Assembly: GCA_017622795.1 (NCBI GenBank)
Contig: JAGAQI010000070.1
Coordinates: 1 to 43,249 of the forward strand
Direction of reading: 5' to 3'
Length of the DNA stretch: 43,249 nucleotides
Origin: Lachnospiraceae bacterium
GTDB lineage: Bacteria > Bacillota > Clostridia > Lachnospirales > Lachnospiraceae
The position numbers and the translations under genes were made by a program. Of the stretch, positions 1-10,359 are shown one piece after another. The notes beneath the pieces were generated by a model. It made no database searches. It saw nothing but the letters and a program-made list of their open reading frames with translations, and had not been told where the DNA came from. Numbering within the stretch: position 1 is the first letter of the stretch; each line of letters opens with the position of its first letter.

Positions 1-311
1 CACCCATAAAATGGGCGGTGGTATCCCCTTCGGGGTCGTGCGCTCTGCGAGGCTTTGCGGCTCCTTTGGAGCCTTATGTACAATGCCACACTTTTTCAAA
101 TTGCTGTCATTGTCCACGCAGTTTCCGCAAGTACAATCGCTGATGCGTTTGTCAGCTGGGGTACAAATTGTACCCTACCTTGCGCTAACTGCCTGCGAAA
201 ATCTGCCACCGGCAGTTTTATCGCAGAGATAGGTGCAGCATTCACCGCACCTATTTTCTTTTTCAGAAAAAGAAACAAAAATTGTGCTTCGGCACAGGAA
301 GGAGGAAAATA
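1..311 (+). other. Non-coding relaxase leader with stacked hairpins; candidate oriT
   Basis: I see no convincing gene in these bases. They contain several short perfect inverted repeats: CCCC/GGGG at 25-35, GGCTCC/GGAGCC at 59-73, GGGTACAA/TTGTACCC at 159-175, CTGCC/GGCAG at 203-215 and TAGGTGC/GCACCTA at 230-253. Such clusters directly upstream of a relaxase gene are typical of transfer origins, and MobA/MobL relaxases usually nick next to their own gene. The 17-base palindrome at 159-175 is the best single candidate for a relaxase-binding repeat. A nick site cannot be assigned by eye. Confidence 0.45.
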
Positions 312-2015
312 GTGAACTATTTCCATTTAGAAGCAAAAGTTGTGAGCCGTGGCGCAGGGCGTTCTGTGATAGCAGCTGCCGCTTATGCATCCTGTTCCCG
401 ACTCTACAATGATTATGATGGGCTTACCCATGACTACACCAGAAAACACGGGTGTCTGTATAGCGAAGTCTTTCTTCCCCAATATGCACCTGAAGAATGG
501 AAAGACAGACAACTACTCTGGGAAGCAGTCGAATCCGTAGAAAAAACAAAGGACAGCCGACTGGCAAGAGAGCTTGTAGTTGCTCTGCCATCGGAACTGT
601 CCCTGGATGACTGGAAAGATATGTTGGAGCGTTTTGTTCGTGAGCAAGGTATTGACCTCGGTATGTGCGCAGATGTGAATATCCATGACCCGTATCCTCC
701 GGGTCATAATCCTCACAGCCATATTCTTTTCACCATGCGTCCCTTAGATGAAAATGGCAAGTGGCAGGCAAAGACACAGAAAGAATACCTTTGCAAGCGT
801 GGCGGCGAAGAACGTGGATTTACCGCTGATGAGTTCAAAACCGCAAAAACACAGGGCTGGGAGAAACAATATATGTATCAGTTCGGGGAGAAAAATGAGT
901 ATTTAACCCCGTCTGAAGCAGAGAAAATTGAAGGCTGTATCAGAACATCAAAAACTCCTAAAAGTACCCGCTATGGAAGACAGAACCCTCTTACAGAGCT
1001 TTGGAACAGCGAAGAACAGATATTTGCGTGGCGCAAGAGTTGGGAAATAATTATCAATGAAGAACAGGAACGCCATGGTATTACCGACCGTGTGGACTGT
1101 CGCAGTCATGCCGCCAGAGGACTAACTGAACAGCCGACCGTACACGAAGGATACCATGCAAGAAAACTGGAATCTATGGGAATTGTTTCTGAACGCTGCG
1201 AACTGAACCGCCAGATCAGAGCAGATAACAAGCTCCTGCGTGAATTGAAAAAACAAGTACAGAAGCTGATGAAAGCTGTCAAAGAAAATATTCCGGCCAT
1301 CGCTTCTGCATTGGAAACTCTGCGTGACCACATGGTTCTGATTCAGTATCAGTTGATCGTGAATACTTCTCAGCAGGAAGCGGTGACCTTCCAGAAAAAT
1401 CTTCTGGCTGATATATTGGCTGAATACAAAAATGTAAAATCTGAAATCAAAGCTAAAACCGCCGAGAAAAAAGAACTGATGGCAGAACAGAAAAACTGCG
1501 GTATCCATTTCATTCGTGCAAGTAAGCTGGGTGAACAGATTGCTACTTTAACCGAGGATATTGAAGAACTGAAATTCCAGAAAGCACAGTTGCTGTCTCG
1601 ACTGAATTGCCAGGATAATGGTGTTGCATCCCAAGATAAAAAAGTAAAAGAGATGAATACTTTTCTTGAAAAACTGGAACAGCAGCATAGTACCCTTTCC
1701 GCACAAAAAGAAAAGGACAAGGCTCAGTTCCTTGAAATCAGAGATAGTATTGCACCTGAAAATCACGATGCCCTTATGGCAGAGCGTGAAGCAATCCGTC
1801 CGGATGGCAAGGTTGGTTTGGTTCAGAAATTGTACGCAGTTTACAAGGGAAAATATCGGTCTGAAACATTCGATGAAGCCAATAGACAGGTAGATGCTGA
1901 ATTACAGGAAGAACCGATGATTAAGAAAAAGCGTTCTATCAGTGAGCAGTTGAAAACACCGAAACTGGAAACGCAACAGCCAAAGAAACAAAAGAGAAAA
2001 GAATACGAACGATAA
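312..2015 (+). CDS. MobA/MobL-family relaxase
   Basis: A 567-aa conjugative relaxase that would nick oriT and lead single-stranded DNA transfer with helper conjugation machinery. The N-terminus starts with the family-typical block MNYFHLEAKVVSRGAGRS and runs through AAAAYAS. The metal-binding histidine cluster HNPHSH lies at residues 132-137. Residues from about 280 onward are rich in charged coiled-coil, as usual for this family, and the C-terminus is very basic. The GTG start at 312 is chosen because it is preceded by AAGGAGGA and begins the conserved motif; an earlier in-frame start at 282 lacks both. A strong terminator follows. No type IV secretion genes are visible, so the element would be mobilizable rather than self-transmissible. 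Confidence 0.93.
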   Translation: MNYFHLEAKVVSRGAGRSVIAAAAYASCSRLYNDYDGLTHDYTRKHGCLYSEVFLPQYAPEEWKDRQLLWEAVESVEKTKDSRLARELVVALPSELSLDDWKDMLERFVREQGIDLGMCADVNIHDPYPPGHNPHSHILFTMRPLDENGKWQAKTQKEYLCKRGGEERGFTADEFKTAKTQGWEKQYMYQFGEKNEYLTPSEAEKIEGCIRTSKTPKSTRYGRQNPLTELWNSEEQIFAWRKSWEIIINEEQERHGITDRVDCRSHAARGLTEQPTVHEGYHARKLESMGIVSERCELNRQIRADNKLLRELKKQVQKLMKAVKENIPAIASALETLRDHMVLIQYQLIVNTSQQEAVTFQKNLLADILAEYKNVKSEIKAKTAEKKELMAEQKNCGIHFIRASKLGEQIATLTEDIEELKFQKAQLLSRLNCQDNGVASQDKKVKEMNTFLEKLEQQHSTLSAQKEKDKAQFLEIRDSIAPENHDALMAEREAIRPDGKVGLVQKLYAVYKGKYRSETFDEANRQVDAELQEEPMIKKKRSISEQLKTPKLETQQPKKQKRKEYER

Positions 2016-2020
2016 GAAAA

Positions 2021-2067
2021 CCACGGCTGTTGCTCCGTAATGGAGCAGCAGTCGTGGCTCTTTCTTT
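2021..2067 (+). terminator. Rho-independent terminator after the relaxase
   Basis: A 16-bp stem (2021-2036 with 2042-2057, two mismatches or wobbles) with a 5-base loop is followed by CTCTTTCTTT. It sits six bases after the relaxase stop codon and separates it from the convergent XRE gene. Confidence 0.85.
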
Positions 2068-2079
2068 GACAAAGTTGTG

Positions 2080-2442
2080 TTATCCAAAAATAATTATAAT
2101 CAAAAGTAGAATTGCAATACCCACAATCCCGAAAATGGCAAATCCATTTATGACCGTATTCACTGTCCGCTTTGCTTGTTGAACATCATCATAAATCGCC
2201 GATATTTGTTTGTCATTCAGATTTTTCTCTCTTACTTCTTGTACATCAATATCTTTCACCAGTGCATCGAGCGACATACCGAAATAATCACTCAACAACA
2301 CAAGTCTTTGGAAGTCTGGATAGGTTTGAGCCAGCTCCCATTTTGAAATGGTCTGTCTGGATACCCCCAGTCTTTGTCCAAGTTCATCTTGGGATAAGCC
2401 TTTGGATTTTCTTAGCTCAATCAGTTTTTCGTTAAAGTTCAT
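2080..2442 (-). CDS. XRE-family regulator with C-terminal membrane segment
   Basis: A 120-aa protein with an N-terminal Cro/CI helix-turn-helix (about residues 5-60: LGQRLGVSRQTISKWE). A short linker follows, then a hydrophobic C-terminal helix at about residues 98-119. The HTH-plus-anchor arrangement is common in small regulators of Firmicutes mobile elements; membrane anchoring may tie DNA binding to an envelope signal, which is inference. It converges on the relaxase gene and is likely read from its own promoter just upstream (2488-2517). It probably controls element genes, but no target can be shown. Confidence 0.9.
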   Translation of the reverse strand: MNFNEKLIELRKSKGLSQDELGQRLGVSRQTISKWELAQTYPDFQRLVLLSDYFGMSLDALVKDIDVQEVREKNLNDKQISAIYDDVQQAKRTVNTVINGFAIFGIVGIAILLLIIIIFG

Positions 2443-2487
2443 ATCATCACTCCTCCGTAGTTGGCTTTGTGTTCTTCTTTCAATAAA

Positions 2488-2517
2488 ATTGTATCAAACG
2501 GTGTAAGAGAGAAGCAA
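2488..2517 (-). promoter_or_regulatory. Putative sigma-A promoter for the XRE gene
   Basis: On the minus strand, TTGCTT and TACAAT are separated by 18 bases, about 45 bases upstream of the XRE start. A small palindrome, CCAAC/GTTGG (2518-2531), abuts the -35 box and could be an autoregulatory operator. Assignment is by eye. Confidence 0.4.
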
Positions 2518-2559
2518 CCAACTACTGTTGGAAATATGACAACCAATCTTAACATTTGG

Positions 2560-2991
2560 CTACATAGGTGCTTTTCTAAAAAACATTCCTTCAGACCATG
2601 CAATCTGTTCAAGCAGTTCTCGCATTTCCCCATCAGGATTATAAATCGAAAGATTCATGCAGTCCCACTCAAATTGAAGCAGAGCATCTTTATCAGAAAA
2701 CATCATATCCATCCAACCGGAGTGATTACACATGATCTGGTCGATGATTTTTGCAACCTGTTCTGACGCTGGCTGTTCAATCCATTCGCCCCAATGTACG
2801 GAAACACGATAATAACACATCAGCTTCAAAATGATGCGGATATACTTATCTCGCAGACCGTAGCGTTCATAGTTGTTGAGCAGATAGGTTTCTACCTTGA
2901 AAAACTGTCCGCCACAATCCTTTGGAACCTGTCGGGGAAGGAAATCAATTATGTAGCAAGGCTTTTCCAGAAGCCTGTTAATATCACTCAT
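2560..2991 (-). CDS. Hypothetical protein, element cargo operon
   Basis: A 143-aa soluble protein I do not recognise. It has no signal peptide or membrane segment and is rich in Trp, Tyr and acidic residues. The start at 2991 is preferred over the in-frame ATG at 3006 because GGAGGTGAT sits just upstream of it. It is the last of three unknown genes on the minus strand, 30 bases after the 245-aa gene, in what looks like one operon headed by a TetR gene. The three probably act together, but no biochemical role is evident. Confidence 0.72.
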   Translation of the reverse strand: MSDINRLLEKPCYIIDFLPRQVPKDCGGQFFKVETYLLNNYERYGLRDKYIRIILKLMCYYRVSVHWGEWIEQPASEQVAKIIDQIMCNHSGWMDMMFSDKDALLQFEWDCMNLSIYNPDGEMRELLEQIAWSEGMFFRKAPM

Positions 2992-3021
2992 GTAGATCAC
3001 CTCCATGCCGTTTAGAAAAAA

Positions 3022-3759
3022 TTAAAAGTTGTGTCGAGGTAATTTTTGGTACTCCGTCGGAATCTCATAATCATAACAGCCCAGACCTCTTACAATTTTT
3101 GACTGGAAGTCAGGGAACGCCCATCTGTTCAGATAGTCGATAAATTCAGCGGCACCGAACATAGCGCCGACCAAGTCCTCATTGACCCGTTTCAGATATC
3201 GTCCGTTCTCTGGCCCATTCCAAACCCAGCTGAACCCAAATTCCAAACAGTACTCATCCAGATTGTCTGCAACTTCTGCGGGAACCAGACACAGCATTGC
3301 CTCACTGTCGTGGCTGAGAATAACTTCTTTCATCCCGACATATTCCGTCTCATCCACAAAGACCATATCGCCCTCGTGGTATATCTCTATGATGCATTCG
3401 CAATGCCCTCGATTTGCAGTAAGATAGCCACAGTATTTTGTCATGTTATAGCCATAGGTTTCATCCATGACGCAAAAGCCAAACTGCTGATATCGCTCAA
3501 AAAAGTCTTTCAAAAACATTTTCTCGCCTGTAAATGTGCCAACATTCCCGGTAACACCCAGCAAATATACGAAACTAAAATCCCATCGAACGTCATGGAA
3601 CTGCACATGGCCGTCTGGCTGCCGATAAGGGGCAGTTGTTTGAACCATTCCAGACTGCATACGCATGGTAAGGTCGTCGCCGCTGACCTCAAAGGCGATT
3701 ACATTCATATCATGCAGGCTATATGGTGTTTTGATGTTATGACGAATTGTTTCCCTCAT
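3022..3759 (-). CDS. Hypothetical protein, element cargo operon
   Basis: A 245-aa soluble protein of unrecognised family. The N-terminal half looks beta-rich and is dominated by alternating hydrophobic and charged residues, with a short aromatic patch (WDFSFVYLLG). The C-terminal half is mixed alpha/beta. No catalytic signature, signal peptide or membrane span is visible. The start at 3759 has GGGGGTAG upstream. It lies 17 bases downstream of the 141-aa gene and 30 bases upstream of the 143-aa gene, consistent with co-transcription. I assign no function. Confidence 0.75.
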   Translation of the reverse strand: MRETIRHNIKTPYSLHDMNVIAFEVSGDDLTMRMQSGMVQTTAPYRQPDGHVQFHDVRWDFSFVYLLGVTGNVGTFTGEKMFLKDFFERYQQFGFCVMDETYGYNMTKYCGYLTANRGHCECIIEIYHEGDMVFVDETEYVGMKEVILSHDSEAMLCLVPAEVADNLDEYCLEFGFSWVWNGPENGRYLKRVNEDLVGAMFGAAEFIDYLNRWAFPDFQSKIVRGLGCYDYEIPTEYQKLPRHNF

Positions 3760-3776
3760 CGGATACTACCCCCAAT

Positions 3777-4202
3777 TCATTGATTCTCATTTAATATCCA
3801 CGGAAGCGTTACCCAAAACTCCAAATCAAAGTGGGGTGTCGGGAACCCAGGCGCTCCGTAAGGATAAGGTTCGTGGCAACACCGTACTTCGCCCCAATCC
3901 GCAACCGTACTTTTTGCGGTATCTCCATTCAGAATACGACCGGCAATGCGATAGCTGAATTGATATAAGTGTCCGTTATCTTTGGGTATGATCGCACATA
4001 CATAGGTGGCTTTATCCGGTGCAATATTCAGTTCTTTCAGAATAGTGAAAACTGCTTCGGGAAGCTCGTTACGGTTGCATAACTCTAAGAAATTGCAGCA
4101 GTCATCACAATCGCAGCCCCATGGTTCGCTTGTCAAATACCAATCTGAGGTTGCAGTTTCATCTATTTCTACTTCGAAATCCCAAAGATGTCGTTTCTGC
4201 AT
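3777..4202 (-). CDS. Hypothetical protein with a Cys/Asp-rich GCDCDDC motif
   Basis: A 141-aa soluble protein I do not recognise. Its distinctive feature is GCDCDDCCNF at about residues 27-36, a run of Cys and Asp that could bind a metal, although no matching second cysteine pair is obvious. The start at 4202 is favoured because AAAGGCGGTG lies a few bases upstream; an in-frame ATG at 4223 would put that Shine-Dalgarno-like sequence inside the gene. It is the first of the three unknown genes, 33 bases after the TetR gene on the same strand, so it may be co-expressed with that regulator. Confidence 0.7.
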   Translation of the reverse strand: MQKRHLWDFEVEIDETATSDWYLTSEPWGCDCDDCCNFLELCNRNELPEAVFTILKELNIAPDKATYVCAIIPKDNGHLYQFSYRIAGRILNGDTAKSTVADWGEVRCCHEPYPYGAPGFPTPHFDLEFWVTLPWILNENQ

Positions 4203-4235
4203 TTCATGCACCGCCTTTCTCATAAGTTCATTTGC

Positions 4236-4760
4236 CTACTTATTATGTTTTGCCCACAGAGCGGCCATTTCTTTTGGCGTCTCTTGCATTCCTCGATTGA
4301 ACCATTCTTCAATCCAACCATAAAGACCATAAGAAAAATATGCTGTTGTATATGCAACGAAATTTTCGTGTTCCGGTTTCGGACCGCAGGCTTCTTTAAT
4401 GCTTTGCAGATTGAGGTGAGATAATCCTTGTTCATATAATCTAATACACAGATCTCTATTGTTCCAGTAATGTGTGAAGATGGCTTCAACCAAATTGAAA
4501 TCTGGCTGCTGAATTGCGTTCAGCCACCAATTATCCAAAAGAGATTTTAGATGCTTACTGATAACATCTTCCTTACTGTCAAAATTACGGTAAAAAGAAG
4601 CTCTGCCAACACCTGCTTCATCACAAATCTGGCTGATTGATATGTCGTTCAAGTGGGTGGTCTGCATCAGCTTCAGAACTGCATCTGTGATATGTTCCAC
4701 TACATAAAGATTACGCCCTTCATTGCTCATCGGTGATACAGTTCTAACTGTTTGTCTCAT
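4236..4760 (-). CDS. TetR/AcrR-family transcriptional regulator
   Basis: A 174-aa TetR-type repressor. The DNA-binding domain spans about residues 18-65, with the recognition region ISQICDEAGVGRASFYRNFD, a clear TetR signature. The remaining helices form the ligand-binding half. The start at 4760 has GGGAGGACAG upstream; an in-frame ATG at 4775 overlaps that site. It is divergent from the membrane-protein/hydrolase operon starting at 4887, with a palindrome between them, so it likely represses that operon and itself. The ligand is unknown; hydrolases under TetR control suggest a hydrolysable xenobiotic or metabolite. Confidence 0.93.
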   Translation of the reverse strand: MRQTVRTVSPMSNEGRNLYVVEHITDAVLKLMQTTHLNDISISQICDEAGVGRASFYRNFDSKEDVISKHLKSLLDNWWLNAIQQPDFNLVEAIFTHYWNNRDLCIRLYEQGLSHLNLQSIKEACGPKPEHENFVAYTTAYFSYGLYGWIEEWFNRGMQETPKEMAALWAKHNK

Positions 4761-4808
4761 TTTCTGTCCTCCCATTGACTGTAAATACTATTGCTGATAC
4801 AATCATAA

Positions 4809-4830
4809 CGCCGATACAAATGTATTAGCG
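4809..4830. promoter_or_regulatory. Candidate TetR operator in the divergent promoter region
   Basis: An inverted repeat with 10-base arms (8 of 10 paired; cores ATACA and TGTAT) is centred at 4819-4820, about 50 bases upstream of the TetR start and 57 bases upstream of the divergent small membrane gene. Sequences resembling -35 and -10 boxes (TTGCTG, ATACAA) overlap it. TetR proteins normally bind such dyads between divergent genes. Confidence 0.5.
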
Positions 4831-4886
4831 ATTGCATTTATTATAAGCTGATGAAAATCAGTTGTCAAGAAGAAAGGAACTGTGAG

Positions 4887-5021
4887 ATGTCATTGATTGC
4901 AAAACGATTGATCATTTTATCTGTCATTATTGTAGCTGCCTTCGTTCTGGGTAGATTGTCTGTCAGAGCATTTCTGAATTTGCTCTTAGGCGGAACCATG
5001 TTCGGAGGAAATATCCTATGA
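4887..5021 (+). CDS. 44-aa single-pass membrane protein
   Basis: A very small gene preceded by AAAGGA at the right spacing. The product is one hydrophobic helix (about residues 8-24) between a basic N-terminus (SLIAKR) and a Gly-rich C-terminus (LGGTMFGGN). Its TGA stop overlaps the ATG of the next hydrolase by four bases, showing translational coupling. It may be a membrane partner or leader peptide for the hydrolase; function unknown. It is short enough to be missed by automatic annotation. Confidence 0.65.
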   Translation: MSLIAKRLIILSVIIVAAFVLGRLSVRAFLNLLLGGTMFGGNIL

Positions 5022-5983
5022 AAGGTGCGAAAAGGAGGACTCATAAAGTGCTTTGGGGATTTATCTATGTAACTGTATTTGTTACAGTGTTTATTGCGTC
5101 CGCAGTCTTTAAGATGAAATATGATCCAACCCATGGAGCATATAAAGCTGATTGGAATGATTCAGTCGGTACAATACATGCGGATCTTGCTTATGATGAT
5201 GGAGAATTAAATAAATATGACCTGTACCTTCCAGCGGATAACACAAGAGAAAACTATGGTCTTGTTGTTTATCTCCACGCCGGTGGATTTACTGCCGGTG
5301 ATAAAAGCGGAGATGCTGAAATGCTGAAATGGCTTTGTTCCAAGGGATATGTGGCTGCGGGCATTAACTATACACTCCGCACAGAGGAAAATACAGCCAG
5401 CGTTTACAGTCAGTCCGTAGAGATTCGGGATGCGATTCCGGTTGTCATCGAAGAAGCAGAAAAATTAGGATATTCCATTGATAAAATGTCAGTTGCCGGT
5501 GGTTCTGCAGGACACGCTTTGGCAATGATTTATGCTTATCGTGATGCAGAGCAGGCTCCTGTGCCTGTTGTACTGACCTTTGGAGCTGTTGGTCCTGCCA
5601 GCTTCTACCAGGAGGACTGGGGCGTGTATGGACTTGATAAGAGCGATAAAGCTTGTGCAGATATGTTTTCCGCTATGGTAGGAACAATGATTACACTTGA
5701 AGAAATTGCTGACGGCACATACATTGAAAAGGTAAAACCAATCTCTGCAGTGGATTGGGTTACTGACAAATCTCCTGCAACAGTTGTTGCCTATGGCACA
5801 CACGATAAAGTGCAGCCGTTTCTTGCGTCCCTTCGTCTGAAAGCGGCATTAGAGGAAAATGGTGTTGACCACCAATACTTTGAACTCCCTCATTCCGGGC
5901 ATGGTTTGCAAAATGACACAAAGCTCTATATGCAATGGATGGATTCAGTCGAAGAATATTTGGATAAGTATATGGGAAGCTGA
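5018..5983 (+). CDS. Membrane-anchored alpha/beta-hydrolase (esterase/lipase type)
   Basis: A 321-aa serine hydrolase. An N-terminal hydrophobic helix (about residues 11-30) would anchor it, with the catalytic domain outside the membrane. The fold shows the oxyanion motif HAGG (about residue 91), the nucleophile elbow GGSAG (about residue 166), a late Asp (YGTHDK) and the catalytic His (HSGHG), the layout of hormone-sensitive-lipase-like esterases. The start overlaps the stop of the 44-aa gene (ATGA). It is followed 14 bases later by a second hydrolase, and the operon faces a TetR gene. The substrate cannot be inferred. Confidence 0.9.
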   Translation: MKGAKRRTHKVLWGFIYVTVFVTVFIASAVFKMKYDPTHGAYKADWNDSVGTIHADLAYDDGELNKYDLYLPADNTRENYGLVVYLHAGGFTAGDKSGDAEMLKWLCSKGYVAAGINYTLRTEENTASVYSQSVEIRDAIPVVIEEAEKLGYSIDKMSVAGGSAGHALAMIYAYRDAEQAPVPVVLTFGAVGPASFYQEDWGVYGLDKSDKACADMFSAMVGTMITLEEIADGTYIEKVKPISAVDWVTDKSPATVVAYGTHDKVQPFLASLRLKAALEENGVDHQYFELPHSGHGLQNDTKLYMQWMDSVEEYLDKYMGS

Positions 5984-5997
5984 AAGGAAATGAATAG

Positions 5998-7407
5998 ATG
6001 AAGAAAGTTTTGAAAATTATTTTGATTATCTTTCTTGTAATCACATTGTTGGTTGCAGGAATTGTGTTATTTCTGTTCCATACATTGAAGTCAGAGTTAG
6101 GCGACCATTGGAAGGATTACGCAAAAGTTTTCGCCATGCAAACAGAAGCCAATAAAGATTTGCCACCATTGAAAAACATTTCGCAGCGTGAGATTGATGT
6201 GCAGTATATTCGCAAGGATGGAACGATTGAAAGCCGCCCTATCCGTCTTTACATACCGGAAGAATCAGAACAGCCTATGCCGCTGATTTATGTGCCGCAT
6301 TATGAAATGGCGGAGAATGCTGCCGAGCTGAGAAGGTATCTGGAGCAAGGTTGGGCAGTTGCATCTCCGACAGATGTACTGCCATCTCATAACGGTCTGC
6401 TTACAGACGATGACCTTGTGTTCAACAATGCAGCCCTGTACGCACTGCGCCACATGGAGGAATTTGATAATCAGCGAATTGCTATCGTTGGTGGCAGTGC
6501 AGGAGGATATACAACTCTGATGCTCAGTGCTTTGCAAATGGGTAATTGTACATCTGTTGCGACTGCTCCTATTGCCAACGTGTATTTCAATTTCTACCAG
6601 TATTTTCAGATGGCACAAAGAGACGATGCCCCGTTTTTTCTGAAATTGGTCAGAGACTCTTTTACTCCGATCCTTGATAATTTCCCGGATATAAATGACA
6701 CGGAACGATGGGAAGCCTTCTCTGCGGTTGGACTTGCCGATTGCTTTAACAGTCCTCTTGTAATAACTCATGTGACCTCTGATATTCTTGTGCCGGTAGA
6801 TCAGATTACAAGAGAATTTACATACGCAAATGAGGGCGAGTCGATGCCGAAAGATTTCTCTACTCGTTTGTCAGAAGATAATCCCGGTGTTCTTGGGCAT
6901 TCTTTGGCAGATGAACTTCCTGCGGAGCTGACCCATGTGGAACATATCATTATAGAAGATTTGGATGCAGACAGTGATTTGCCGTATAATGAAGAAAAGC
7001 TTTTCAATATCAACATTTACGATGATGGCCCAACAGAATCCTATGGCAGCCATCGAGCAACCAGCGGTACTGGTGTTGTAGATGACGTTCCATATCTGAA
7101 AGCCATGTTTGAACGAGGTCTGGCACAGAACGAAATTCTTACAGAAGGGAAGCTATTTCTACTGTTAGAACGATACATGGGTGAAAGCCCCCAACTTCCT
7201 GCACATGAGGGCGTGGACGATTCTGTTTATGGTTCTCTTGCGATTTATCGTCAGGAAATCGTTGAAGAACTTACTTGCTGGGCAGCAAACAACTCCATTG
7301 AGGAATTGGATGTAGCTGTAAAATCGGCTATTGCAGAACAAGATACAGACAAATATATTGAAGTATGGGATGAAATCTACAATGATATAGGTTCTTCTTT
7401 AAGATGA
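5998..7407 (+). CDS. Membrane-anchored alpha/beta-hydrolase, S9-like
   Basis: A 469-aa protein with an N-terminal membrane helix (about residues 4-25) and an alpha/beta-hydrolase domain. The nucleophile elbow GGSAGG lies at about residue 165, inside a sequence resembling acylaminoacyl-peptidases and other prolyl-oligopeptidase relatives. Residues beyond about 300 include an extra acidic, mostly helical region not needed for the core fold. AAAGGAAATG precedes the start. It lies in the same operon as the 321-aa hydrolase and the following 82-aa membrane protein, so the two enzymes may work on the same extracytoplasmic substrate. Confidence 0.85.
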   Translation: MKKVLKIILIIFLVITLLVAGIVLFLFHTLKSELGDHWKDYAKVFAMQTEANKDLPPLKNISQREIDVQYIRKDGTIESRPIRLYIPEESEQPMPLIYVPHYEMAENAAELRRYLEQGWAVASPTDVLPSHNGLLTDDDLVFNNAALYALRHMEEFDNQRIAIVGGSAGGYTTLMLSALQMGNCTSVATAPIANVYFNFYQYFQMAQRDDAPFFLKLVRDSFTPILDNFPDINDTERWEAFSAVGLADCFNSPLVITHVTSDILVPVDQITREFTYANEGESMPKDFSTRLSEDNPGVLGHSLADELPAELTHVEHIIIEDLDADSDLPYNEEKLFNINIYDDGPTESYGSHRATSGTGVVDDVPYLKAMFERGLAQNEILTEGKLFLLLERYMGESPQLPAHEGVDDSVYGSLAIYRQEIVEELTCWAANNSIEELDVAVKSAIAEQDTDKYIEVWDEIYNDIGSSLR

Positions 7408-7418
7408 TGGAGGTTCGA

Positions 7419-7667
7419 ATGGACAAACGCAAAGATAAAATAACTGCTTTGGAAATTGTTATTGCTGCAACGCAGGTTTTAACAGTAATTTGCATCTTCG
7501 AAGGTAATCCTGCGTGGAAAGGAAGCCTATCCATTCTATTTATTGGAGCTGCAGCAAAACTCTTTTATAAATATAAGAATTACGAAGAAAAGCCTTACCT
7601 CTACGTCGGAATCGGCGTTGGAATAATTGGAATAGTATTATTGCTGTGGTTTGGTATTACTGGATAA
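7419..7667 (+). CDS. 82-aa membrane protein, end of hydrolase operon
   Basis: A small protein with two or three predicted membrane helices (about residues 12-27, 33-46 and 57-79) and a basic loop (YKYKNYEEK). The start at 7419 is chosen because GATGGAGG is directly upstream; an ATG at 7404 falls before that ribosome site. It lies 11 bases after the 469-aa hydrolase gene and just before a strong terminator, so it closes the operon. No family is recognised. Confidence 0.72.
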   Translation: MDKRKDKITALEIVIAATQVLTVICIFEGNPAWKGSLSILFIGAAAKLFYKYKNYEEKPYLYVGIGVGIIGIVLLLWFGITG

Positions 7668-7674
7668 TAATAGT

Positions 7675-7716
7675 CCCCCTGTGGTAGCAGTACGCTAACC
7701 ATAGGGGGATTTTTAC
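7675..7716 (+). terminator. Terminator between hydrolase operon and tnpV
   Basis: An imperfect 11-bp stem (7675-7685 with 7698-7708) has a 12-base loop and is followed by ATTTTT. It sits at the convergent boundary with the minus-strand TnpV gene. Confidence 0.8.
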
Positions 7717-7717
7717 A

Positions 7718-8089
7718 TTAACAATATATCAATTCACTTAACACAATTTCCTCTACCGCATTTCGGATATTGTTCATAGCACCCACCCATGTCATTTGAT
7801 CACGAGCTTTTAATGCTTCATTTACACCCTGCTGTTTTTTCATTTGCAGGGTCAACAGATCCATTCTCTGATTAGCGGTATCATCTACCTCATTCAGATG
7901 TTTAATCAGATCGCCGTCCAACAAAAGTGTATTGTACAGTACCTTGCGGTGTTCTTTCAGATGACGCAGACGCATTCGACCGTACTTTCCGTACCGTGGT
8001 TCTTCTTCCGGGAGTACAAGGTTAGGATAATACATCCCATCAGCACCCAATGTATAGGTTCCGCCCATTTCTTCAAAGATTGATTTCAT
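7718..8089 (-). CDS. tnpV: TnpV-family transposon protein
   Basis: A 123-aa protein matching the TnpV family carried by Tn4451/Tn4453-type mobilizable transposons: a start like MKSIFEEMGGTY, a central YPNLVLPEEE segment, and a helical RHLKEHRK core. The biochemical role of TnpV is not established. It lies divergently next to the serine recombinase, with 88 bases between the starts, in the position where a helper or directionality factor might be encoded. Its presence, with the recombinase and relaxase, classifies the element. Confidence 0.8.
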   Translation of the reverse strand: MKSIFEEMGGTYTLGADGMYYPNLVLPEEEPRYGKYGRMRLRHLKEHRKVLYNTLLLDGDLIKHLNEVDDTANQRMDLLTLQMKKQQGVNEALKARDQMTWVGAMNNIRNAVEEIVLSELIYC

Positions 8090-8107
8090 AGAAAACCCTC
8101 CAATCTG

Positions 8108-8136
8108 TTTACTTTATTGCTACGCTATGTTATAAT
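8108..8136 (+). promoter_or_regulatory. Sigma-A-like promoter of the serine recombinase
   Basis: TTTACT (8108-8113) and a perfect TATAAT (8131-8136) are 17 bases apart, 42 bases upstream of the recombinase start, which has AAGGAGGATATG. I do not see a clear sigma-E-type promoter, which might be expected if excision were purely a sporulation event. Confidence 0.6.
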
Positions 8137-8177
8137 ACCACAAGACACATCACATATCAAGATAAGGAGGATATGAA

Positions 8178-10007
8178 ATGCGGAAAAATGATGACATCAT
8201 AGCTATCTATTCCCGTAAGTCTAAATTTACCGGAAAAGGTGAAAGTATCGGCAATCAGGTAGAGCTATGTAAAGAATATGTTCGTGTGCATTATGGTGAT
8301 GCTGCTGTAGATAAAGTGATCGTTTTTGAAGATGAGGGTTTTTCTGGTGGGAATCTGAATCGTCCTGCATTTAAGAAGATGATTGATGCGGCAAAAAAGA
8401 GAAAATTCAGTGCGATTATTGTATATCGTCTTGACCGTATCAGCCGTAACGTCAGTGACTTTTCCGGTTTGATTGAAGAACTGGCTCGTCTGGATATTGC
8501 TTTTGTTTCTATTAAAGAGCAGTTCGATACAAGCACTCCTATGGGACGAGCTATGATGTATATTGCATCTGTTTTCTCGCAGTTGGAGCGTGAAACCATT
8601 GCGGAGCGTATCCGTGATAATATGCACGAACTGGCAAAGACCGGACGCTGGCTTGGTGGCACAACACCTACTGGCTATGCTTCAGAAGCGGTTAAGAGCA
8701 TTACCATTGATGGCAAATCTAAGAAAGCCTGCAAGCTGAAACTGATTCCGGATGAAGCTGATATTGTCAGAATGATTTATGATTTATATATAGAAACAGA
8801 TTCTCTGACTTTGACAGAAGCTGCCTTGATCAAACAGGGTATCAAGACAAAAAACAATAACTACTTTACCCGTTTCTCAATCAAAGCTATTTTGCAAAAT
8901 CCGGTTTATATGATTGCGGATGAAGATGCCTATAATTACTTCGTTCAGAACGATACAGACTTGTTCTCAGAAAAAGATGCTTTCGATAATCAGCATGGTA
9001 TTATGGCTTACAACCGTACCGATCAGGAAAAAGGCAGAGCCACCAAGTACCTGCCTGCAAGCGAGTGGATTGTATCTGTCGGCAAACATCCGGGTCTGAT
9101 TCCGGGCAAGGTGTGGGTACAGATTCAAGAATCTCTGGAACGTAATAAATCCAAATCGTTCAGAAAGCCACGCAGCAACGAAGCACTTTTGACTGGATTG
9201 TTGTTCTGTAGTTGCGGTGAGCGTATGTATCCGAAGATGAGCAAGCGTAAAACTGCGGACGGCAAGGTGATTTATACCTATGTTTGCAAAATGAAGGAAC
9301 GCAGTCAGAGATCTGTGTGCAACAGCAAAAATGCCAATGGTAATACATTGGATATGGCTGTGGTTGAGCAGATTAAAATGCTTGCAGAGGACAAAGACAC
9401 TTTCATTGCACAGCTGGAGCAAAGCCGCAGATTCTATACCGGCAATCGTATGGACTATGAACAGCGATTGGATGATATGCGAAAAGAAAAGGCAGATACA
9501 GAGAAGAAAATCAACTCTCTGGTAGACTCCCTCGTAGATATGGGTGACAGCCCTGCCAAGGCTCATGTAACCAAACGAATTGAGCAGTTGAATGGAGAAT
9601 ACCAGTCCCTTGAACAGCGTATTCAGGAACTGGAGGGACTGACTTCACAGCACGCTCTCAGCGACATTGAATTTGATTTGCTTCGTCAGTTGCTGACCAT
9701 CTTCAAGGATGGCATTGATGAAATGACAGTTGAACAGAAACGTGCTGCCATTCGTACCATTGTGCGTAAGGTGGTATGGGATGGTGTCAACGCCCATGTG
9801 ATTCTGTTTGGTGTAAAGGATGATGAAATCGAGTATCCGGAAATTGCTGCTGTAGCATCCGGTAATACTGAGGATGATGACGAAACAGAGGAATTGGTGA
9901 ACTTCTCTGATGTCGATTATGATACTGACGATATGGAGGATGACCGCCTGGGAAAAACTAATCCCCTCAGTGCTTTAAAAACGCATTGGGGGGAGGATAG
10001 CAAATGA
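8178..10007 (+). CDS. Large serine recombinase (TnpX/SpoIVCA-like) at the sigK junction
   Basis: A 609-aa large serine recombinase that would integrate and excise the element. The resolvase domain (about residues 7-150) has the nucleophile Ser12 (IYSRKS), the active-site block YRLDRISR (about 83-90) and the E-helix with ETIAERI. The recombinase domain follows, then a zinc ribbon with Cys344, Cys346, Cys370 and Cys381, and a coiled coil at about 410-500. The last roughly 50 residues are strongly acidic, an unusual tail. It is longer than typical skin recombinases (about 500 aa) and shorter than TnpX (about 700 aa). The stop codon falls in the attachment core, so excision would remove the gene exactly. 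Confidence 0.95.
   Translation: MRKNDDIIAIYSRKSKFTGKGESIGNQVELCKEYVRVHYGDAAVDKVIVFEDEGFSGGNLNRPAFKKMIDAAKKRKFSAIIVYRLDRISRNVSDFSGLIEELARLDIAFVSIKEQFDTSTPMGRAMMYIASVFSQLERETIAERIRDNMHELAKTGRWLGGTTPTGYASEAVKSITIDGKSKKACKLKLIPDEADIVRMIYDLYIETDSLTLTEAALIKQGIKTKNNNYFTRFSIKAILQNPVYMIADEDAYNYFVQNDTDLFSEKDAFDNQHGIMAYNRTDQEKGRATKYLPASEWIVSVGKHPGLIPGKVWVQIQESLERNKSKSFRKPRSNEALLTGLLFCSCGERMYPKMSKRKTADGKVIYTYVCKMKERSQRSVCNSKNANGNTLDMAVVEQIKMLAEDKDTFIAQLEQSRRFYTGNRMDYEQRLDDMRKEKADTEKKINSLVDSLVDMGDSPAKAHVTKRIEQLNGEYQSLEQRIQELEGLTSQHALSDIEFDLLRQLLTIFKDGIDEMTVEQKRAAIRTIVRKVVWDGVNAHVILFGVKDDEIEYPEIAAVASGNTEDDDETEELVNFSDVDYDTDDMEDDRLGKTNPLSALKTHWGEDSK
9963..9993 (+). repeat. Imperfect inverted repeat beside the attachment core
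   Basis: Arms at 9963-9973 and 9983-9993 (11 bases, nine Watson-Crick pairs plus one possible G-U) lie inside the last codons of the recombinase gene, ten bases left of the AATGA core. It could be part of the recombinase-binding site or a weak transcript hairpin separating the recombinase from sigK. Confidence 0.4.
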
Positions 10008-10014
10008 ACTGTTG
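10003..10014 (+). other. Putative attachment core (attR) within sigK
   Basis: The bases AATGAACTGTTG read as N-E-L-L in the sigK frame, matching the conserved N-E-I-L that precedes the LRS-KK block in SigK. They also contain the recombinase TGA stop. AATGA is, as I recall, the short repeat at which the Bacillus subtilis skin element recombines, and GA is the crossover dinucleotide reported for TnpX elements. The partner copy at the left end is outside the window, so the exact crossover is unproven. Confidence 0.6.
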
Positions 10015-10359
10015 ATGTTGATGAGAAGCAGTAAAAAACAATCCAGAGAGGTTTCATTGTATGATCCCATCGGTTCCGATAAAGAGGGAAATACCATTCA
10101 GCTGTTGGATATTTGTGTGGCAGAAGAGGTAGATGTTATCGATCGGATGGAGGAACAGCAAAAACTGGCTAAATTACAGAATTACATAGATAAAGTATTG
10201 ACAAAACGGGAAAAGGAAATTATTACCTTACGCTATGGTTTATATGACGGACGTGAAGTTACCCAACGGGAAATTGCAGACAGGATGCATATATCCAGAA
10301 GCTATGTATCCCGGATTGAAAAGAAAGCATTAAACAAATTAAAGGCTGCCTATGCGTAA
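10012..10359 (+). CDS. sigK: 3' part of sigK, interrupted by the mobile element
   Basis: The 115 codons encode the C-terminal part of the late mother-cell sporulation sigma factor. The block EVSLYDPIGSDKEGN is diagnostic for SigK over SigE. Region 4, with its helix-turn-helix at about residues 86-107 (TQREIADRMHISRSYVSR), binds the -35 element. Regions 1-3 are missing: the frame continues in phase left to about 10003 and then meets the recombinase gene. The TTG at 10012 is only a nominal start with no ribosome site; this is an interrupted gene segment. Its 5' partner should lie on the same strand, left of the window. The gene ends inside its own terminator. Confidence 0.92.
   Translation: MMLMRSSKKQSREVSLYDPIGSDKEGNTIQLLDICVAEEVDVIDRMEEQQKLAKLQNYIDKVLTKREKEIITLRYGLYDGREVTQREIADRMHISRSYVSRIEKKALNKLKAAYA

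Follow-up and report, generated by a model that had tools for sequence, protein, structure and literature searches.

An integrative mobilizable element in sigK of a Lachnospiraceae bacterium, with a candidate excision factor and a likely role in sporulation

In the literature, skin elements, which interrupt sigK, appear as defective prophages maintained in the role of developmental switches. Clostridial transposons of the Tn4451 type are mobilizable and encode a large serine recombinase (LSR), TnpV and a relaxase, and homology to TnpX and TnpZ is the mark of this type. For C. difficile, the portion of the study drawn on here (PMC5025042) reports a layout established by experiment: the LSR CD1231 is produced from a sigma-A promoter beside the split sigK, and the 72-residue recombination directionality factor CD1234 is under control of sigma-E and SpoIIID. 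SigK has no pro-sequence there and the element, skin(Cd), is prophage-like. According to the same portion, the skin element of B. subtilis also splits sigK and is excised in connection with sporulation; it is prophage-like as well, its serine recombinase SpoIVCA is sporulation-specific, SigK carries a pro-sequence, and the two skin elements have different sites and orientations (PMC5025042). The gin element, as presented in the part of PMC5595907 used here, is of non-phage type and resides in gerE of Bacillus cereus ATCC10987, which is rebuilt during sporulation. Intervening elements of sigK as such, and a non-phage element in a sporulation gene, are therefore known already. Among the open-licence papers listed by our literature searches, none dealt with a mobilizable element in sigK.

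The locus described here has much in common with skin(Cd): sigK is split, an LSR with a sigma-A-like promoter lies beside it, SigK lacks a pro-sequence, and a protein of 74 residues would take the place of the 72-residue CD1234, a likeness of size and layout. The split sigK, the serine recombinase and the presumed sporulation-linked excision are shared with B. subtilis as well. In contrast to the prophage-like skin(Cd), we find a MobQ relaxase, a ParM-like gene and TnpV (with RepA_N added from relatives), and near-identical copies exist in other families. Phage-derived gene content, usual in described skin elements, was not recognised in the Pfam-scanned proteins of the window element and C127, which is a difference of origin and not of mode of action. 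The gin element is similarly non-phage and its host gene is similarly a sporulation gene, but that gene is gerE and not sigK. A TnpV homologue, as in Tn4451-type transposons, is present; the relaxase, however, belongs to MobQ and integration occurs at one sigK site. We consider it likely that an integrative mobilizable element (IME) of about 20 kb occupies sigK, that its excision in the mother cell, directed by a small protein, rebuilds the gene, and that MobQ-dependent transfer carries the element to new hosts.

The window, i.e. the whole stretch of 43,249 nucleotides that was analysed, is contig C31 of the draft genome G000 (3.23 Mb, 147 contigs, completeness 86.6). Its plus strand contains, at 10003..10359, region 4 of SigK together with the preceding linker, as delimited by SigK models, the genome search and the rejoined alignment. 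Positions 10012-10359 (+) match PRK05803 (E 2.7e-41, model positions 116-226 of 235) and TIGR02846 (E 1.8e-40, model positions 114-225 of 227), in both cases within the C-terminal part only. This agrees with the earlier note, made from the letters of the window, which had recognised a 3' part of sigK without regions 1-3. When the whole of G000 was searched with a SigK profile, we obtained the C-terminal part in the window (model 109-225), an N-terminal part (model 24-119) at C127:6842-7129 on the minus strand, and no full-length SigK in this draft genome. The sole near-full-length match to the model (C11:50107, 249 bits) stays under the SigK cut-off and is presumably SigE. The situation is thus that of a skin element, with sigK interrupted, both halves in the genome and no intact copy found. 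The note had expected the 5' half upstream on the same strand: the half does exist in the same genome, but it lies on another contig and its common strand follows only from relatives. A second intact sigK, which by the note would have refuted its reading, was not found by the profile search. Two of the three other genomes in the genus, G003 and G001, encode intact SigK above the cut-off, with the empty sites TGTATTGAAAATGAACTTCTGATG and TGTATCGAAAATGAACTTCTGATG, respectively; the third, 78% complete, yielded a SigE-like match only. Joined at the att core, the two halves give a SigK that aligns without gaps to that of G003 (175/206 identical, dN 0.092, dS 1.55) and of G001 (159/205, dN 0.160, dS 2.14, near saturation), values that span divergence before and after the insertion and are not decisive. 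The match begins at model position 24, that is, without a pro-sequence. SpoIIID is encoded by the host.

Comparison of attL and attR in the window and its relatives places the crossover within a common AAATG. The attR site (9994..10013, +) consists of the element arm AGGATAGCA (9994-10002), the core AA (10003-10004) and the beginning of the sigK part. AGGATAGCA and the opposite arm, TGCTATCCT, flank this AA as an inverted repeat of 9 bases, and the element ends taken together make an inverted-repeat attP. The junction base that had been predicted for the window, 10003, is the first base of the core, and the LSR gene abuts the 3' part of sigK as exactly as had been claimed: its stop codon TGA (10005-10007) is sigK sequence. 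Codon matching had pointed to a crossover at the ATG near 10021; this was rejected once the arms of 14 attL and 16 attR sites had been compared, since their inverted repeat has its centre at the AA of 10003-10004. Among 26 elements handled by one script, 24 combine arm pairing at 7-12 of 12 positions with in-frame read-through of SigK; the script anchors the core on an Asn codon, which makes the position of AA, but not the arm pairing, a matter of construction. L155 could not be parsed and G035 was misplaced by the script; G035 and Holdemania, placed directly afterwards, agree with the att model. The element carries its recombinase at one end, and joining sigK at the att sites returns the two halves to a single frame. 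Judged from sequence, the insertion point in sigK lies at the codons C-I-E-N|E, and the element's own sigK-specific serine recombinase is the predicted agent.

Two genomes show peculiar arrangements at the same place. In G240, two contigs (L075 1-20 and L076 1-20) meet exactly at the att core, one ending with ..GAGAATG and the other beginning with AATGAAAT. An assembler would produce such a break from coexisting integrated and empty sites, or from mixed strains; a search for the element ends at the contig ends of G240 did not find them. In G323 (C46:11581-12188), parts 24-111 and 111-225 of the SigK model adjoin directly, in two frames and uninterrupted by any element, perhaps as a scar or a frameshift at the same site.

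The right part of the element, about 10 kb, fills positions 1..10002, as delimited by the att analysis and by collinearity with elements of Holdemania, Tyzzerella sp. An114 (G231) and G340. It begins with a MobQ family relaxase (282..2015, +; PF03389 MobA_MobL, E 2.6e-77; NCBIfam MobQ over the cut-off). The cargo follows: an XRE-type HTH regulator (2080..2442, -; PF01381), three ORFs without Pfam match (2560-3006, 3022-3759 and 3777-4223, all -; the stretch 3110-4218 aligns with the Holdemania element), a TetR family regulator (4236..4775, -; PF00440, PF14278), a BD-FAE-like alpha/beta hydrolase (5018..5983, +; PF20434, E 1.9e-20), a second alpha/beta-hydrolase-like protein (5998..7407, +; weak PF20434 and PF00326) and a small hydrophobic ORF (7404..7667, +; no NCBIfam match). 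TnpV (7718..8089, -; PF14198, E 5.6e-40) and the LSR (8178..10007, +; Pfam Resolvase, Recombinase and Zn_ribbon_recom) complete this part, and the last codons of the LSR are the attP arm. By hexamer score, a sigma-A-like promoter TTTACT-17-TATAAT lies at approximately 8107..8136 (+), 41 bases before the LSR start codon; TTTAC-17-TATAAT-like promoters scoring at least 10 of 12 precede the LSR in 10 of 22 upstream regions, IME types included.

The left part of the element corresponds to C127 of G000 from position 1 to about 6867. From the 5' half of sigK inward, it encodes a 198-residue double-HTH ORF, the 74-residue ORF on the opposite strand, an NB-ARC/TPR protein and an AAA/DUF4143 ATPase that is preceded and followed by an HTH protein; the contig then ends within the first part of a ParM-like gene. 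We infer a gap of about 3.1 kb between C127:1 and C31:1, which would bring the whole element to about 20 kb. Going by An114, G340 and Holdemania, the gap should hold the rest of ParM, a 123-residue ORF, RepA_N and a DnaC-like ATPase; because RepA_N was not found in the draft G000, its presence is deduced from relatives only. Pfam scans of the element proteins in the window and in C127, which cover all but this gap, recognised no phage structural gene. No conjugation gene was recognised either in the Pfam-scanned parts or among the ORFs of the complete relatives read by eye. The relaxase of MobA/MobL type, TnpV and the hydrolase cargo (two genes, 5018-7407) are present as the earlier note described them, and so is the backbone of relaxase, TnpV and LSR, the last as integrase, on which it had called the element an IME. 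An integrative mobilizable element in sigK, with MobQ relaxase, ParM-like protein, TnpV and LSR, and RepA_N as predicted from relatives, is well supported.

In An114, G340 and Holdemania sp., where a single contig spans the complete element from end to end, its gene order is collinear with that of the window. The LSR of the window is 95-97% identical to those of five other hosts (L082 from Holdemania, L080, L081, L083 from An114, and L087), whereas the 3' parts of SigK in the same hosts are only 43-55% identical to that of the window (47% for An114 and Holdemania). Therefore the element must have moved horizontally, as an IME would. DNA identity over the TnpV-LSR segment amounts to 93% with Holdemania and 88% with An114. 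The proposal that the element is transferable is thus corroborated by near-identical copies inside sigK of other families. The cargo varies: regulators and hydrolases in the window, and a response regulator, a sensor kinase and K+ uptake-like genes, as judged by eye, in An114. No LSR of at least 60% identity was found in plasmid or phage records, nor did we find the element as a free circle. With near-identical recombinases in Lachnospiraceae, Tyzzerella and Holdemania, the occupant of sigK is an element that carries mobilization genes and has passed from family to family, and a sporulation switch would thereby become a transferable trait in the gut.

An LSR at E 1e-60 or better occurs in 42 of 295 relatives, and in tblastn searches the 3' part of sigK adjoins the LSR in 15 of 30 examined loci, including the window. 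Among the best 80 of at least 579 confirmed candidate loci in genome_contigs, it lies within 3 kb after the LSR in 75; of the other five, L118, L127 and L134 have the 5' part of sigK beside the LSR on the opposite strand, and L094 and L146 have neither. In 14 of 35 genomes searched, the two halves of sigK share a contig and a strand and are separated by 3.5 to 67 kb. The types range from IMEs (An114, G340, G035) through a prophage-like element (G254, ORFs judged by eye) to small elements with the LSR and few genes (G320, G312, G175, G286), a series along which the steps leading from a mobile element to a minimal "DNA intron" can be traced. In the 14 genomes behind the named loci, no SigK exceeds the cut-off. 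Twelve of these 14 show both halves; G366 and G369 show the 5' half only at the E-value used, and their 3' parts are in L109 and L091. Annotation of such genomes would call sigK absent or broken. In 80 IMG/VR loci, the 3' part of sigK follows the LSR in three (L160-L162).

Some LSR relatives are placed differently. In L127, L134, L118, L042 and the IMG/VR locus L164, the LSR lies beside the 5' part of sigK on the opposite strand, and in these insertions it seems to be the opposite end of the element that carries the LSR. Outside sigK, the LSR of L094 (8001-9794, in G120:C1; 71-72% identical) retains an intact attP arm AGGATAGCAAA with the core near 9784-9795. G120 has no SigK-model match at E 1e-20, and the site seems to be a secondary one in a host that appears to lack sigK. 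Another related LSR is found in L077 (NZ_CP149669.1), a 24-kb circular C. difficile record made up of a eut gene cluster and the serine recombinase, which resembles a piece excised from the chromosome and deposited under the label of a plasmid.

The 74-residue protein is a candidate excision factor, or recombination directionality factor, comparable to CD1234. All 16 of the genome_contigs loci that have both halves of sigK carry a member of its family between them, as do 11 of 13 elements in a second set, whose halves share a contig; the sets overlap, and L140 and L141 are nearly identical. Among 240 genomes of the host family, 11 have it: 9 of the 12 whose sigK is split and 2 of the remaining 228 (Fisher p 1.9e-12, for genomes that are not independent). 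In this split count, genomes were inspected singly only where the best match was SigE-like, G009 was not inspected, and the odd SigK fragments in G040, G066, G093, G100, G152 and G323 were left out. The two elements of the second set without the protein are those of G033 and G254; it was likewise undetected at the cut-off used in G027 and G032. Elements of this kind may use another factor or may have lost it. G127 and G166 possess the protein despite an intact SigK. It also occurs in 5 of the 80 IMG/VR loci, while queries with the copy of the window element against plasmids and with the L139 copy against phages returned no match. As for other assignments, the 198-residue HTH ORF was rejected as directionality factor since the minimal elements G320, G175 and G286 do without it and keep the 74-residue ORF. 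Identity of the latter with TnpW was dismissed as well: it has no Pfam match, its window copy has no NCBIfam match, and PHROGs gave only a weak match of 0.17.

Upstream of the small protein gene we noticed the pattern ATA-N2,3-GGACA-N9,13-CATA. We take CATA to be a sigma-E -10 element and GGACA to be SpoIIID-like, the latter assumption being one for which a paper search found nothing; the C. difficile consensus for SpoIIID, KRTAACARK in the part of PMC5025042 used here, is unlike GGACA. Exact matches number 19 in 2,669,258 strand-bases of loci (five duplicates dropped), and 16 of them directly precede a small protein gene. Viewed from the genes, the pattern occurs in 16 of 34 upstream regions exactly and in 18 of 34 with one mismatch allowed; it was defined after viewing these regions, and the relatives share ancestry. 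The distant members L139, L147, L159 and G335 keep it. The small protein is thus a candidate for expression from a sigma-E-like promoter in many of its copies, and the family offers a directionality-factor role that can be tested.

We propose the following course of events. The LSR would be made constitutively from its sigma-A promoter. In the mother cell, sigma-E, perhaps together with SpoIIID, would turn on the small protein, which would act as recombination directionality factor. Recombination between attL and attR by the LSR and the small protein would then excise the element in circular form and make sigK whole again, allowing late sporulation to proceed. The forespore, being the germ line, would keep the element. 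On another occasion, MobQ would transfer the circle with help of a conjugative element, and the LSR would insert it into sigK of the new host. By analogy with the described systems, and in view of the conserved small protein and promoter-like block, regulated excision as a developmental switch is likely, and late spore formation probably depends on precise removal of the element from sigK.

The element might also be a genuine IME whose excision has no developmental role, with sigK as a safe harbour and carriers that are asporogenous or sporulate only after rare loss. The apparently constitutive LSR promoter, the incompleteness of several host draft genomes and the LSR relative in G120, a genome without SigK match, would fit this idea. 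We nevertheless find it rather unlikely, given the low dN/dS of split SigK against the sisters (even if pre- and post-insertion divergence is covered), the rejoined reading frame retained in parsed elements, and the tie of the small protein to split sigK together with the conserved promoter-like block, which would be pointless without regulated excision. An origin as decayed prophage-type skin element that acquired mobilization genes is very improbable: although related LSRs occur in prophages and the element at sigK in G254 looks prophage-like by eye, the Pfam scans of the window element proteins speak against it, as does the gene order common to elements with RepA_N, ParM-like and MobQ genes in other hosts. 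Even less credible is an assembly artefact that joined the element wrongly to a fragment of sigK. G000 is a draft of 147 contigs with the halves on separate ones, but single contigs show the same arrangement in 14 genomes, including those of the isolates Tyzzerella sp. An114 and Holdemania sp. Marseille-P2844.

The att site may have a second function. In 15 of 25 parsed rows, the sigK TGA terminates the LSR frame two bases after the core begins. Across attP, it stays open into the HTH gene, giving 815 residues in the window element and Holdemania and 818 in G035; an identical extension of 207 codons is present in G231, G340 and L150. On the other side, all 8 of the 8 IME-type 5' ends have an HTH frame that runs without a stop from the junction codon onward. 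Over the 75-78 codons that precede the HTH, pN/pS is 0.07-0.22 in the five closer comparisons and reaches 0.48 against G035 and 0.54 against L150, and there is no ATG, GTG or TTG in the first 35 (G035) and 29 (L150) codons of the HTH frame. Therefore the front of the HTH protein, which is conserved, looks translated from upstream. As counterpoints, the integrated copies of G340 and G035 have an ATG in the 5' part of sigK in the HTH frame, and bases at the junction are constrained as att site. We tentatively put forward, as a possibility we do not yet favour, that attP of the circle lies inside a single LSR-double-HTH gene. Integration would cut this gene, the sigK TGA would end a shorter LSR, and the HTH part would be left under transcription from the sigK promoter, so that one site would toggle both a sigma factor and a recombinase. 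If true, such reciprocal splitting would tell the element whether it is integrated or free. There is precedent for attP within a gene in the mycobacteriophage BPs, where, in the part of PMC4557955 consulted, integration shortens the C-terminus of the protein. That protein is a phage repressor, whereas here a recombinase of an IME is predicted to lose an HTH domain.

Two further proteins of the left part deserve mention. The NB-ARC/TPR protein, a STAND-type ATPase of 780 residues (L021 3444-5804), is kept in IME-type elements and has no PADLOC match. The AAA/DUF4143 ATPase (L021 1158-2453; also in L062, L060 and L068) matches the PADLOC candidate defence family PDC-S01 with E 2.9e-115, and copies of it, 90-98% identical, are nearly the sole cargo of the small sigK elements in G312 and G320.
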